From positions 1-39,765 of the IMG/VR virus record IMGVR_UViG_3300010210_000006: a DNA stretch of 39,765 nucleotides. One strand, given 5' to 3'. The position numbers were made by a program, and so were the translations under genes. This document shows, in pieces, positions 139 to 38,940 of this stretch. The notes beneath the pieces were generated by a model. That model did no database searches, was not told the origin of the DNA, and saw nothing but the letters and a program-made list of their open reading frames with translations. The number at the start of each line of letters is the position of its first letter. Position 1 is the first letter of the stretch. This DNA is from a virus.

Positions 139-1338
139 ATGAGAAGAAAAGAGATTTATTTACCCAGAACCTACCAACCAAAGGATAGCAATCCCCGTAA
201 ATGGCATGTTGAATATTCATTCTTTGACGAAGTCGAAGGAAAAATGCGACGCTTCAAAATCACAAAAGGCTTTGCAGCCTGCACTACCGTTGAAGAGTGT
301 AAAAAAAATGCTAATAAAATCAAGGCTGAATATACTCGTAAACTTCTAAATGGATGGAGTCCTTTTGAGGATTCAAAAAGAGTAGTTTGGTCAGATAGCC
401 TTGCTTATCATAAAATAAGCAAAGGGAAGAAGCCTGTTTATAGGTCCAAAAAAACTGTAGCATACTATACAACAACCTTTTTGAAAAAGTTTGAGCACAA
501 TGCTCCTAAAACTTATAATTCCTACGAAAGCAAATTAAGAACTTTCAGAAATTGGCTGAAAGAAAACAAATTAGGCAATAAAGATGTTTCATTATTAGAA
601 AAAAATATTGCTCTGAAATTTGTAAACTATCTACACAAAGAGGAAAAAAGAGCAGCCAAAACAAAAAATGAATACACTCGACTGTTAAGTGCTTTTTGGA
701 ATCACATAAAGGAAGAGCGTCCCAGGCTCGAAAATATATGGAGTGACATACCAAAATATAAAAGTGATACAGTACCTCAAAGGCCTTTGAAAAAAGGAGT
801 AATGAAAATCCTTAAAACAGAACTTGAAAAACGCAATCATCAATTATTATTGGCTGGACAGTTTATGTATTACTGTTTCATCCGTCCAGGAGAATTACGT
901 CAAATGCAAATTAAGCATCTTGATCTTTACGGTGGAACTATCACCCTTTACTCCAATATGACTAAAAACAGGAAAACCAGAACCGTTGATGTAAGCGAAA
1001 CTTTTCTTGATGTTTTAATTAATAAATATGAATTGCATAAGTTTCCGGAAGAATATTATGTTTTCAGTTCTGATGGAGAACCTGGTTTACAACCAGTTTC
1101 GGCTAATTATTTCAACAAACAGTTTAAAAAGATTAGACGTGATTTAAAACTGCCGGAGTTTTATAAATTTTACGGATTCAAACATACGGGAGCAGTAGTT
1201 GCAACTCGTGCCGGTGCCGACATTAAGGCTATCCAAAACCAAATGGGCCATCATTCAATTTCTCAAACTGATGAATATTTAAAGTCAATGATTGGATATG
1301 ATTCAGAATTCTTTAGGAAACAGATGCCGGACTTTTAA
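139..1338 (+). CDS. int: Tyrosine recombinase, phage integrase
   Basis: A 399-residue site-specific recombinase that would integrate and excise this element at the tRNA end just to its left. An N-terminal arm-binding/SAM-like region (about 1-215) precedes a catalytic domain (about 220-399). Visible catalytic elements are R249 in FIRPGELR, the K348-H349 pair in the box-II position (KHT instead of the commoner RHT, frequent in Bacteroidetes integrases), H371 in MGHHS and the nucleophile Y380 in TDEYLK. Length is normal for the family. An earlier ATG at 129 is in another frame and is not used. It is one of only two clear rightward genes and ends tail-to-tail, overlapping by four bases, with the leftward gene at 1335-1628. 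Confidence 0.95.
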   Translation: MRRKEIYLPRTYQPKDSNPRKWHVEYSFFDEVEGKMRRFKITKGFAACTTVEECKKNANKIKAEYTRKLLNGWSPFEDSKRVVWSDSLAYHKISKGKKPVYRSKKTVAYYTTTFLKKFEHNAPKTYNSYESKLRTFRNWLKENKLGNKDVSLLEKNIALKFVNYLHKEEKRAAKTKNEYTRLLSAFWNHIKEERPRLENIWSDIPKYKSDTVPQRPLKKGVMKILKTELEKRNHQLLLAGQFMYYCFIRPGELRQMQIKHLDLYGGTITLYSNMTKNRKTRTVDVSETFLDVLINKYELHKFPEEYYVFSSDGEPGLQPVSANYFNKQFKKIRRDLKLPEFYKFYGFKHTGAVVATRAGADIKAIQNQMGHHSISQTDEYLKSMIGYDSEFFRKQMPDF

Positions 1339-1628
1339 CCCTCCCCAAACATCCACCTAAACTCAATTTCTTCATCTTCTTCCACAGCCTCAAATTTATA
1401 ACCGGCTTCTTTGAGTTGTTTAATTAGTTCATCAAAATCAAGTTCAAAGGTCGGATTATGGCCATAAATTAAATCACATACTTTTTCTGTAGTTAGCAAA
1501 TGCGTTGCTTCCTCTTCGGTTTCTGCAGGTGGAAATTTGCTCTTGAGTTTTTTAATAAGTTCAATAAGGTTGTTAGTAAATAATTCCTTACGTTTTTGGT
1601 CTCTTTCACGTTTGACTGGTATTTCCAT
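1335..1628 (-). CDS. Hypothetical charged protein (97 aa), accessory gene
   Basis: Unrecognised. The product is rich in Lys and Glu, with an N-terminal basic helix (residues 1-30), an acidic EEEA stretch and a Glu-rich C-terminus ending FRWMFGEG; no membrane segment or cysteine motif is seen. I start it at the ATG at 1628 because the longer in-frame reading would begin inside the terminator-like RNA hairpin. It is the last leftward gene, just downstream of a structured RNA with a U-tract (1640-1743), so its expression probably depends on read-through of that element. Together with 1767-2460 it forms a small cassette between baseplate genes and integrase, where lysogenic-conversion genes are often found; that role is not shown. 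Confidence 0.6.
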   Translation of the reverse strand: MEIPVKRERDQKRKELFTNNLIELIKKLKSKFPPAETEEEATHLLTTEKVCDLIYGHNPTFELDFDELIKQLKEAGYKFEAVEEDEEIEFRWMFGEG

Positions 1629-1639
1629 TTCGATAGAAT

Positions 1640-1743
1640 AAAAAAAAGCCAGCCTCCTACTGTCGTACACCTCTCAGGATGTGCTACGCCCACACGTAAC
1701 TTAGGAAACTGGCTAATCCATTTTCCTGAGAGTTTGTACGACA
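1640..1743 (-). ncRNA. Structured RNA with two interleaved stems and a U-tract (attenuator or pseudoknot)
   Basis: Reading leftward, stem A pairs 1735-1743 with 1661-1669 (9 bp, TGTCGTACA/TGTACGACA) and 1724-1732 with 1671-1679 (9 bp), with a small bulge. Stem B pairs 1709-1714 with 1647-1652 (AGCCAG/CTGGCT) and 1702-1706 with 1655-1659. B is followed at once by eight U (A-tract 1640-1647 on +). The stems interleave, so they either form a pseudoknot or exclude one another: B would be the terminator, A the antiterminator. A small TACG/CGTA hairpin sits at 1685-1698 inside loop A. It lies between 1767-2174 and 1335-1628. No known RNA family is recognised. Confidence 0.7.
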
Positions 1744-1766
1744 ATGCAAATATATGAAGTTTTGCG

Positions 1767-19880: not shown

Positions 19881-20309
19881 GGTTAAAGAATGCCTGGCTT
19901 TACACAGATAAGAGGAAACTAGTGTCAAGTGCGGAATATCCTTAAGGAGTCCGCTTTGTATACACTTTACATTGTTGAGTCGTTCTGTAATTTTGCATTG
20001 CTTCTAAACTGTGAGTAACAGTTATGCGTTGGTTTTCTTTTTGCTACTTTTTCTTTTGTTCCTTCATGAAAAGAAAAAGTAGCGCCCAAGTCTCATAAAT
20101 AAATACTTAAAATTCAATCTATTAATGTTTTAGCATTGGGGAAATGCTAAAAATTAATAGTTGAATCAACACTACCCACGCCAACCCCTATTTGAAAAAC
20201 GCAATTGCTTTTTGCATTTGAAGGGTGGATATATGAAAATGGGGGTAGGGCTGCGCCCTTAGTGCACATTGCAATTGAATTTTTGCAATTGCATCATTGC
20301 ACTTAGTAA
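19881..20309. other. Non-coding stretch with inverted repeats after terL
   Basis: No credible gene. A 15-bp perfect inverted repeat GCTACTTTTTCTTTT/AAAAGAAAAAGTAGC (20043-20057 and 20069-20083) and a second one (20121-20137 with 20143-20158, core TTTTAGCATT/AATGCTAAAA) can act as terminators in both directions for terL on the right. GCAATTGC palindromes stand at 20201, 20271 (partial) and 20285. A TTGACA at 19923-19928 belongs to a possible but badly spaced promoter for 19813. Confidence 0.6.
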
Positions 20310-25024: not shown

Positions 25025-25681
25025 TTATACTACAGGTTCAAGAGTGATCGCTCCTGTATAAATTGGTGCAGGTCCATTCTGCCAACTCTTAAATTGGAAG
25101 GTTGAGCCTTTTTCGCCTCCGGAATTATTTCCGGAAGAACCGGTAACATTTCCCAATACTGCAGGAACACCTGGTTTAATTCCTAAAATTCTTTTATTTC
25201 CATCGGCTTCCTGAACGATTACTAAAAATTTGGTTGTTCCTGCCAAACGTTGGAACCCAAGTGAGGCTGCATCATTTTTAGGGAAGAAAAATTCATAAAT
25301 CGATTCGTAAGAATTTGAGTCTTTTCCTTCGATTTTATTGTCATCTATTTTTCCACTATCGGGCGATGCATATAATTCAAGGAATTTTGAGCCTACTTTT
25401 GGTATAATATCGGTGTCAACGGTTGCGTAATCTCCCAATGCGGCAGGATTGGCAACATAACCTGGTAAGGTTTCAACTTCAGATATGGGAATATAATAAG
25501 CGAGTAACTGGGTACCTGCCATATTATCCTGGCCATCTTCAAAATTCAAATCAGCAAAACCTATTGGCGGTGCCATTGCAAGGGTTAGGCCTTCAGTAAG
25601 GCTTGCACCAAACAAAAATGCGGCGAGGGCCACTATGGCCATGCTTATTAAGATAAATGATATTTGTGCGTATTTTTTCAT
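25025..25681 (-). CDS. Structural-protein paralogue with N-terminal membrane segment (218 aa)
   Basis: From residue 36 on it is clearly related to 28109-28819: shared GKIDDNKIEG, YESIYEFFFPKNDA, LGF(Q/M)RL(A/S)G, QE(A/S)DGN and QNGPAPIY. Unlike the paralogue it begins with a hydrophobic segment (about residues 5-34, ISFILISMAIVALAAFLFG) that looks like a signal anchor. The ATG at 25681 is supported by the TAATCGCAAAA element 11 bases upstream, also found before the capsid gene; a start at residue 36 (25576) would remove the membrane part. Function unknown; see the finding. Confidence 0.65.
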   Translation of the reverse strand: MKKYAQISFILISMAIVALAAFLFGASLTEGLTLAMAPPIGFADLNFEDGQDNMAGTQLLAYYIPISEVETLPGYVANPAALGDYATVDTDIIPKVGSKFLELYASPDSGKIDDNKIEGKDSNSYESIYEFFFPKNDAASLGFQRLAGTTKFLVIVQEADGNKRILGIKPGVPAVLGNVTGSSGNNSGGEKGSTFQFKSWQNGPAPIYTGAITLEPVV

Positions 25682-28108: not shown

Positions 28109-28819
28109 TTAATTTACGTGAATTTGGATATGACGTTCAGTTAATTGATTGTTGGAATTATATGAATAATACCAGGTGAATATTTTTTTATTGAGATGAT
28201 AATAATCTGTAACCAACGGAAGCCCTATACTATTGGCTTGAGAAATAATAAAGGAGGTGTAAATCATTGGGTATAATGAAAGGTCCTCACTATCCCGATC
28301 CAAATTAAAAAGCCCATTATATATAGGAGCCGGTCCGTTTTGAACTGAGCGCACCTGGAAGGTTGCACCCTTGTCGCCTGAACTTAATGTACCGGAAGAA
28401 CCGGCCACACTTTTTATTACTGCAGGTTTACCCGGACTAATTCCCATAATTCTCAAATTGCCATCCGATTCCTGGACAATAAAAACGAATTTAGAACCAC
28501 TCAATCTCATAAATCCTAAGGCGTTAGCATCATTCTTTGGGAAGAAAAATTCATAAATCGATTCGTAGGATCCTGTATTACCTTCTATTTTATTGTCATC
28601 AATTTTGCCGGTATTACTAGTGGCATAAATTTTATAGAAAGTTTTGTATGGCATTGGTACCACATCGCCATCAAGAATTGAATAATCAGCAAAAGTTAAA
28701 GGATTTGGTTTGTATGGAGGAATATAAAATACTTCATCAAACGATAATGCCCAGGCCACCACTGGAACGCCCGGCATATTATCTTCACCTTGTGTAATAT
28801 TTAAATCTGTAAAATCCAT
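28109..28819 (-). CDS. Structural protein, paralogue of 25025-25681 (236 aa)
   Basis: Starts MDFTDLNITQGEDNMPG and shares with the gene 2.4 kb downstream the blocks GKIDDNKIEG, YESIYEFFFPKNDA, SSG..SGDKGATFQ and QNGPAPIYNG. It has no membrane part but a C-terminal extension of ~35 residues (about 190-236) that the paralogue lacks. The shared block before a Pro-Ile-Tyr near the end also resembles the end of 28822-29319 (KRAPIYEL). A tail-tube or decoration role is likely from gene context; unproven. Only two bases separate it from 28822. Confidence 0.6.
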   Translation of the reverse strand: MDFTDLNITQGEDNMPGVPVVAWALSFDEVFYIPPYKPNPLTFADYSILDGDVVPMPYKTFYKIYATSNTGKIDDNKIEGNTGSYESIYEFFFPKNDANALGFMRLSGSKFVFIVQESDGNLRIMGISPGKPAVIKSVAGSSGTLSSGDKGATFQVRSVQNGPAPIYNGLFNLDRDSEDLSLYPMIYTSFIISQANSIGLPLVTDYYHLNKKIFTWYYSYNSNNQLTERHIQIHVN

Positions 28820-38397: not shown

Positions 38398-38940
38398 TTA
38401 TACAATTCGTTTTTCTACAGCAAAGCGGCAAATTCCGACCTTGCTTGATGCTCCAATTTTCTTTTGAATATTAACACGATGCTGGTTAGCAGTGTTAACT
38501 GATATATTTAGTTTATCGGCTATTTGTTTGTCAGCCAGATCTGATGCAATGAGTTTAATAACATCAATTTCACGAGGCGTTAAATAACCATTTTCGGCTT
38601 CAACGTGACGACAGAGTTTTCCTTCAACAGGGCACTTGCCTCTTTGGCCGCAGTCATAATATTCGTGATTTTCAGAATCCTTAGTAACGTCTGCTTTATC
38701 ATCAAAACCACCAAACCTGCACAGCGTAAATTTCTTAAGGCGTTCCTTTTCCCCTACTATATTTAATTGATCAAGGCTTACCTGGGCAATTGTATCATCA
38801 TCTAATTGCGATTGAAGCGAGTATAATGTTTTGGCCTCGAATTCATTAAAATGGATTAATTCAACCTTTACTCGATATAATTCACCATCAATACCAATGA
38901 ATTCTCGATTTATATTATTTAAGTGCTCAGGAAGTTTCAT
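38398..38940 (-). CDS. LuxR-type regulator with cysteine cluster (180 aa)
   Basis: Residues 119-180 are a LuxR-type helix-turn-helix (LTPREIDVIKLIASDLADKQIADKLNISVNTANQHRVNIQKKIGA), a known transcription-activator domain. Upstream lie four cysteines, C74, C97, C103 and C110 (CGQRGKCPVEGKLC), probably a zinc or Fe-S site; the N-terminus (1-60) resembles a ligand or dimer domain. It overlaps the Cro-like gene by four bases and is the second gene of the leftward early operon. It is a candidate activator of the GTCCTTT late promoters, but another factor could do this. Confidence 0.75.
   Translation of the reverse strand: MKLPEHLNNINREFIGIDGELYRVKVELIHFNEFEAKTLYSLQSQLDDDTIAQVSLDQLNIVGEKERLKKFTLCRFGGFDDKADVTKDSENHEYYDCGQRGKCPVEGKLCRHVEAENGYLTPREIDVIKLIASDLADKQIADKLNISVNTANQHRVNIQKKIGASSKVGICRFAVEKRIV

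Follow-up and report, generated by a model that had tools for sequence, protein, structure and literature searches.

The leftward RNA at positions 1743-1640 of the IMG/VR virus record IMGVR_UViG_3300010210_000006 (39,765 nucleotides, analysed over its full length and called the window below) is built like C4 and probably works like it; it has an intrinsic-terminator-like end and probably either attenuates the 97-aa gene behind it or acts in trans. C4 is an antisense RNA of phages P1 and P7 which blocks antirepressor synthesis, as described in PMC12197685 and PMC5320573, and both C4 and c4-a1b1 are among the RNAs listed by Weinberg et al. 2010 (PMC2864571). Here a Bacteroidota phage seems to have a variant of a lysogeny-control RNA already familiar from other phages, resembling the C4 of E. 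coli phage P1 but ending in its own terminator. The reading favoured in this work, with moderate confidence, is that of a C4-like phage antisense RNA, where a C4-like RNA acting in trans drives attenuation of the 97-aa gene as part of lysogeny or superinfection control.

The 104-nt RNA contains two interleaved stems, A and B, with eight U residues closing stem B (Table 1). Stem A has a total of 18 pairs, arranged as two segments of 9 bp (1743-1735 with 1669-1661 and 1732-1724 with 1679-1671) on either side of a 2x1 bulge, and stem B has 13 continuous pairs (1714-1702 with 1659-1647), including two G-U pairs and the first U of the tract. A sequence-only reading of this DNA had described both stems. 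Its 18-bp, once-bulged stem A is borne out by the sequence and by folding, with the whole RNA reaching -39 kcal/mol at a z score of -4.05 and none of 200 shuffles being equally stable, and the interleaving that it gave agrees with that found here; for stem B, the eight U were correct, while the 6+5 bp have to be replaced by the continuous helix. The end of the RNA has the parts of an attenuator with an intrinsic terminator, namely a predicted stable stem, a U run directly behind it and a competing stem, with a 42-nt stem interior that is unlike simple terminators. A simple terminator scan, restricted to loops of 3-8 nt, listed nothing at 1640-1647. The terminator/antiterminator-like relation of stems A and B that had been suggested is likely.

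Between 1600 and 1900 on the minus strand the motif TAnnTTTG is found once, in a presumed promoter box of the Bacteroidota -7 type, which the sequence-only reading had not mentioned. Since this box lies 3 nt ahead of the stem A 5' arm, the RNA probably begins at stem A. No obvious -33 element accompanies the box, and the motif is not enriched in the window (44 occurrences on both strands versus 52-82 in ten shuffles). Also on this strand, an 83-aa open frame starting from TTG (1493-1744) spans the whole RNA and is probably a chance occurrence, and by eye a GGA (1719-1717) is located 2 nt ahead of P1, which fits the GGW motif given in PMC5320573 for RNase P cutting of C4 on the 5' side of P1.

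Table 1. Features of the C4-like RNA and the gene behind it (window coordinates).
Feature	Position	Strand	Basis or remark
Bacteroidota-type -7 promoter box (presumed), TATATTTG	1754..1747	-	sequence; start expected at ~1744-1739
Stem A 5' arm: b1 UGUCGUACA (1743-1735) and a1 CUCUCAGGA (1732-1724)	1724..1743	-	complementary, in order, to b' strand and a' loop
P1 5' arm (stem B 5' arm)	1702..1714	-	13 bp with 1659-1647
P2 hairpin, 7 bp, tetraloop GUGG	1683..1700	-	fold and sequence
P3 hairpin, 5 bp, 6-nt loop CUGAGA (a' loop)	1667..1682	-	fold and sequence
Stem A 3' arm: a'/b' region, alternative pairing with 1743-1724	1661..1679	-	fold, interleaved-pair scan
b' single strand ACGACAG, 7 nt	1660..1666	-	fold
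P1 3' arm (stem B 3' arm)	1647..1659	-	fold
U8 tract; with P1, an intrinsic-terminator-like end	1640..1647	-	sequence
97-aa gene, weak match to phrog_36314	1335..1628	-	ATG 11 nt past the U tract

The earlier claim that stem A is too long for chance proved overstated: judged by Watson-Crick length only, bulged repeats of at least 18 bp arise in 8 of 200 dinucleotide shuffles of this AT-rich, 40-kb window, and stem A is not the longest bulged repeat of the window, which has 24 pairs at ~20119-20160. The interleaved pair taken together with the T-run has a joint score of 72.5 against a maximum of 49.5 in dinucleotide shuffles of the window, none of 300 reaching it. A cruder first pseudoknot scan, which split stem A where it is bulged, did not set the window apart from shuffles, one of 30 exceeding its score.

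Folding of the 77-nt core without the 5' arm yields P1 (13 bp), P2 (7 bp with a tetraloop), P3 (5 bp with a 6-nt loop) and a 7-nt strand at -31.0 kcal/mol, which for this single sequence is the P1-P2-P3 fold of C4 with its tetraloop, a' loop and b' strand. When P1 was kept fixed and the 42-nt interior shuffled, this layout, a pattern defined post hoc, was given by 5 of 5000 sequences, three of which were about as stable. Upstream a1 and b1 segments complementary to a' and b' are also present, and their pairing is stem A. By eye, the upstream arm is complemented by the a' loop and the b' strand, with b preceding a just as in phage P1, and all 13 unpaired a'/b' bases complement the arm together with U1744 (12 Watson-Crick pairs and one G-U).

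The C4 of phage P1 (RF01695), whose shape was taken from the Rfam consensus structure as matched there and from its MFE fold, has a P1 of 17 bp, a P2 of 5 bp with a tetraloop, 0 nt, a P3 of 5 bp with a 12-nt loop, and 7 nt. The window RNA shares with it the closing stem, a P2 with a tetraloop, an adjacent 5-bp P3 carrying the a' loop and a 7-nt b' strand; it also shares with phage P1 C4 and the c4-a1b1 leader (RF03163) an upstream b1-a1 in the same order and a gene behind. Unlike phage P1 C4, it has a U8 tract, shows no sequence similarity that could be seen and no model match, and is missing a2/b2 at the next gene. Its b1-a1 is contiguous and beside the core, whereas the copy of phage P1 C4 is ~70 nt upstream. 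The window RNA resembles phage P1 C4 in core geometry and the leader of phage laban6-1 in layout.

A pseudoknot scan of related phages picked out this leader in Flavobacterium phage vB_FspS_laban6-1 (13107-13230, minus strand). As in the window, it comprises a box, the 5' arm of stem A at the start, a hairpin, P1, a U tract, 11 nt and an ATG, with values of its own (a 19-bp stem A, P1 with a 1-nt link, and U6). Unlike in the window, the target is kept, the antisense arm complementing the next start over 19 nt (18 Watson-Crick pairs and one G-U by eye, in agreement with folding). The Rfam C4 clan gave no match to the laban6-1 leader at E 10, the miRNA names returned for it are eukaryotic families and were taken as chance, and R2, a covariance model introduced below, matches it weakly (17.4 bits, E 0.11), with an unrelated place in the same genome ranking higher (E 0.027). 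At the equivalent position, 1H, 2A and FPSV-D35 carry leaders with other stem sequences and the same pairings. Over six such leaders, 16 of the 33 pairs of the whole structure are changed on both sides, which none of 500 shuffles reaches, and this covariation, where stems A and B keep their pairing, is destroyed by sliding the partners. With regard to annotation, gp10 of laban6-1 (YP_009854808.1, L021:13003-13236) is a CDS placed over the C4-like leader and is probably no gene. Behind the leader (L022:8970-9675, L021:12665-13100) are two overlapping genes, phrog_33690 and phrog_38077, which look translationally coupled and for which icd-ant of phage P1 serves as a comparison; in laban6-1 itself, the first of the two appears by eye to have shrunk to 15 codons and is leader-peptide-like.

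Two covariance models, R1 and R2, were built from the six-leader family. R1 matched in 4 of 397 genomes of a family draw, and R2 in 9 of 395 genomes of a phylum draw and 52 of 299 of a genus draw, three of the latter only at E 0.004-0.015. Rfam c4-2 (RF02944, C4 clan) matches 6 of the 14 loci tested above its gathering score. In an alignment of 50 matches (49 distinct), stems A and P1 covary, with 19 of 30 pairs doubly changed and none of 500 shuffles reaching any of five measures, the alignment having been fitted to a model that contains stem A, which favours A, and from which stem B is absent. The covariation that the sequence-only reading had looked to is therefore found for both stems in this related Flavobacterium family, while covariance searches brought up no relatives of the window RNA itself.

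At all 50 loci read (L022-L024, L030-L032, L034-L037 and L041-L080, after leaving out L020, L021, L025-L029 and L033 as duplicates or near-duplicates, and with genus-draw match places represented by those made into loci), the 3' arm of stem A complements the 5' arm and also the start of the next gene, from the UG of its AUG to at least the end of codon 2. Six second codons are matched in this way, CAA, ACA, UCA, ACU, CUA and CGA. Distinct antisense/start pairs match in 18 of 18 cases; when the gene starts were permuted 2000 times, the number averaged 4.1 and never exceeded 10. This control addresses a bias of the script towards matches, since it required the antisense complement to recur upstream and kept the best ATG. 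Because the 3' arm complements both the leader copy and the gene start, stem A is b1-a1 paired with the antisense strand, and stem B is the C4 closing stem P1. The c4-2 RNA reportedly originates from a 2017 paper, where the link to codon 2 may already be in print.

Like the c4-2 RNAs of Flavobacterium, the window RNA has a promoter box (seen at many c4-2 loci), b1-a1 at the RNA start, the core, a small gene and the interleaving of A and P1. The inner stem P1b, the conserved sequence and the a2 match at AUG and codon 2, present at each c4-2 locus read, have no counterpart in the window RNA, whereas its U8 contrasts with those loci, where no U tract directly follows P1. The interleaving in phage P1 and in Flavobacterium c4-2 occurs because the upstream target copy b1-a1 complements a' and b' inside the closed C4 core, and the same origin makes the window RNA better read as a C4-type antisense RNA than as a ligand riboswitch; of the earlier riboswitch or attenuator reading, the attenuator-like relation is the likely part. 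Some c4-2-like RNAs occur as same-strand neighbours ~350-650 nt apart (L049:1149-1321 and 1501-1664, and also G866, G1041 and G952). The settings of L038, L039 and L040 differ by eye, being beside a 754-aa ATPase-like gene on a chromosome, in a tailed prophage and in a possible tailless virus carrying a lytic-transglycosylase-like gene along with many small ones. In the literature searched nothing was found on C4 in Bacteroidetes, and RF02944 was found mentioned only in the Rfam 15 paper.

For the window RNA itself, no match was obtained with the Rfam C4-clan models, RF01695 included, at E values up to 10, with R1 and R2, or with the Rfam riboswitch and leader families, and a match to snoJ33, a eukaryotic family, was taken as chance. 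Both the c4-2 model match and the inner stem P1b are lacking, and the window start AUGGAAAUA has no a2 match at AUG and codon 2. Pairing of a'/b' with the start of the 97-aa gene reaches -9.2 kcal/mol and does not amount to an a2/b2 target as in C4; among the 131 ATG starts of the phage, the type of start covered by the search, the best value is -21.0, inside the range of shuffled antisense sequences (median -19.7, 5% point -23.7). The model R3 found a single copy of the element in the window and, over 395 Bacteroidota genomes, four weak and chance-like hits (E 0.007-0.9; L081-L084), which were rejected as relatives for want of the U tract or the hairpins or because several mispairs would be required. 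Viral contigs contained no exact copy of the P2 hairpin, and searches by tblastn, DNA or pattern that started from the window RNA, its 97-aa gene or neighbouring proteins were unproductive. From one search for relatives of the RNA, 16 stretches were discarded, none resembling it when read by eye. Given the Rfam, R1 and R2 misses and the lack of a target and of a relative, the window RNA is assigned to neither RF01695 nor RF02944.

The window encodes a tape-measure protein with relatives in Flavobacterium phages such as 6H, 1H, 2A and laban6-1 (family Duneviridae), where the integrase gene adjoins the genes beside the tape-measure gene. In the window, integrase and tape-measure neighbours are separated by the RNA, the 97-aa gene and two small genes. 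As this neighbourhood is interrupted by them, they look like an accessory insertion, and the location of the RNA between accessory genes, as originally described, is confirmed. The gene upstream of the RNA is located at 1767-2174, and the integrase gene ends at 1338. Control of the 97-aa gene, which had also been supposed, may occur. No relatives of the 97-aa protein were found by tblastn or in 296 genomes; the search with phrog_36314, in which the controls too went unmatched, carries no information on this. Its structure model, of low confidence (pLDDT 63), shows three helices and two strands and is too weak for a fold search. A kinship with the second gene of L036, suspected by eye, was not borne out (BLASTP E 0.35; 7 genomes gave only the protein itself). 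Elsewhere in the window, a regulator-like protein (38398-38940, minus strand; phrog_10300) matches a CARF-protein model of a defence library (E 2.4e-7), and a 101-nt direct repeat, 72% identical, is found at 25131-25231 and 28392-28492.

From this architecture we infer transcription, termination, action in trans and a role in immunity. The promoter at 1754-1747 would give rise to the leftward RNA, whose core (P1, P2, P3 and the 7-nt strand) would expose a' and b' and whose P1 and U8 would end the transcript. The 5' arm b1-a1 would be a copy of the target and, while attached, would pair with a'/b' as stem A. In stepwise folding stem A has already closed at 84 nt, when the 3' arm of P1 is still to be made, and its form has a lower predicted energy than the core (-38 versus -31 kcal/mol); being the more stable and the first formed, it would delay or strain P1 and permit read-through into the 97-aa gene. 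As stem A beats the core in cis by energy, a free core would need cleavage or an RNA in trans. A free C4-like RNA, supplied by the same phage or a resident prophage, would cover b1-a1 in trans and release a'/b', upon which P1 and the terminator would form and the 97-aa gene would be turned off, making the element an antisense-driven attenuator. Alternatively, A and P1 would coexist as a pseudoknot, with termination taking place regardless and action in trans only. Such a pseudoknot may be sterically possible, having links of 9 nt before P1, ~22 nt holding hairpin P2 and 1 nt from A to P1, and the stems would then not need to exclude each other. The version with exclusive stems is preferred because it explains why b1-a1 is kept though a2/b2 is absent.

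In the attenuators of plasmids pT181 and pIP501, a trans-acting antisense RNA from the opposite strand decides between terminator and antiterminator in the nascent leader. The window RNA would be similar in that an RNA in trans is proposed to choose between the two, and different in that its antisense RNA would be the terminated leader itself rather than an opposite-strand product. A further proposal, tentative and rather doubtful, is that a C4-type RNA has been turned from a blocker of translation starts, acting through a2/b2, into a self-copied attenuator, where the terminated leader would itself cover b1-a1 on the next nascent transcript and lead to termination; laban6-1, having both U6 and a2/b2, would be an intermediate.

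The lack of a target found within the phage, along with the promoter-like box and U8 of the RNA, would also suit an orphan C4-like RNA which has gained a terminator and acts in trans only, its target being a host mRNA or an early mRNA made by a competing or superinfecting phage. This would be in line with the altered a' loops and proposed new targets of C4 RNAs from Acinetobacter baumannii (PMC5320573). A perfect cis copy of b1-a1 would be unneeded in such an RNA, and the 10 stretches that turned up when viral contigs were scanned for the b-a target are chance-like by eye; the trans-only orphan is considered unlikely. A plain cis attenuator or ligand riboswitch with no tie to C4, the view of the sequence-only reading, would accommodate the interleaved stems, the terminator-like end and the gene 11 nt downstream, but would turn the three-stem C4-like core and the matching b1-a1 order into a coincidence, and no Rfam riboswitch or leader family matches; it is considered improbable.

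Two other explanations carry still less weight. The arms of stem A could be a DNA feature, an 18-bp inverted repeat near the integrase gene serving as a recombinase or regulator site, with stem B being the terminator of gene 1767-2174. The end of the integrase gene at 1338 and a repeat length that is not rare in shuffles speak for this, but the interleaving, the tetraloop hairpin and the spacing of the promoter box would be left unexplained, and it is deemed very improbable. Type III antitoxin RNAs consist of tandem pseudoknot repeats ahead of a ToxN-like toxin. A possibly pseudoknotted RNA with a terminator-like end and a gene behind it recalls them, as would another RNA-protein module involving the 97-aa protein; yet no tandem repeats before a ToxN-like toxin are seen in the window, where R3 finds the element in one copy, and the 97-aa protein matches no toxin or defence model, so that this explanation hardly deserves credence. 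The type III toxin-antitoxin and riboswitch readings were dropped, as was an HDV-like ribozyme reading that had been considered.

C4 is a classic immunity RNA of phages P1 and P7, and the matches in 52 of 299 genomes of the genus draw suggest frequent use of C4-like control among Flavobacterium phages and prophages. The c4-2-like loci further suggest that part of the specificity resides in the second codon of the controlled gene; as changes in codon 2 go along with changes in the antisense strand and in the leader copy, this specificity is directly testable. With the C4-like antisense attenuator favoured for the window RNA, some Bacteroidota phages may have switched the output of C4-like control from translation to transcription.
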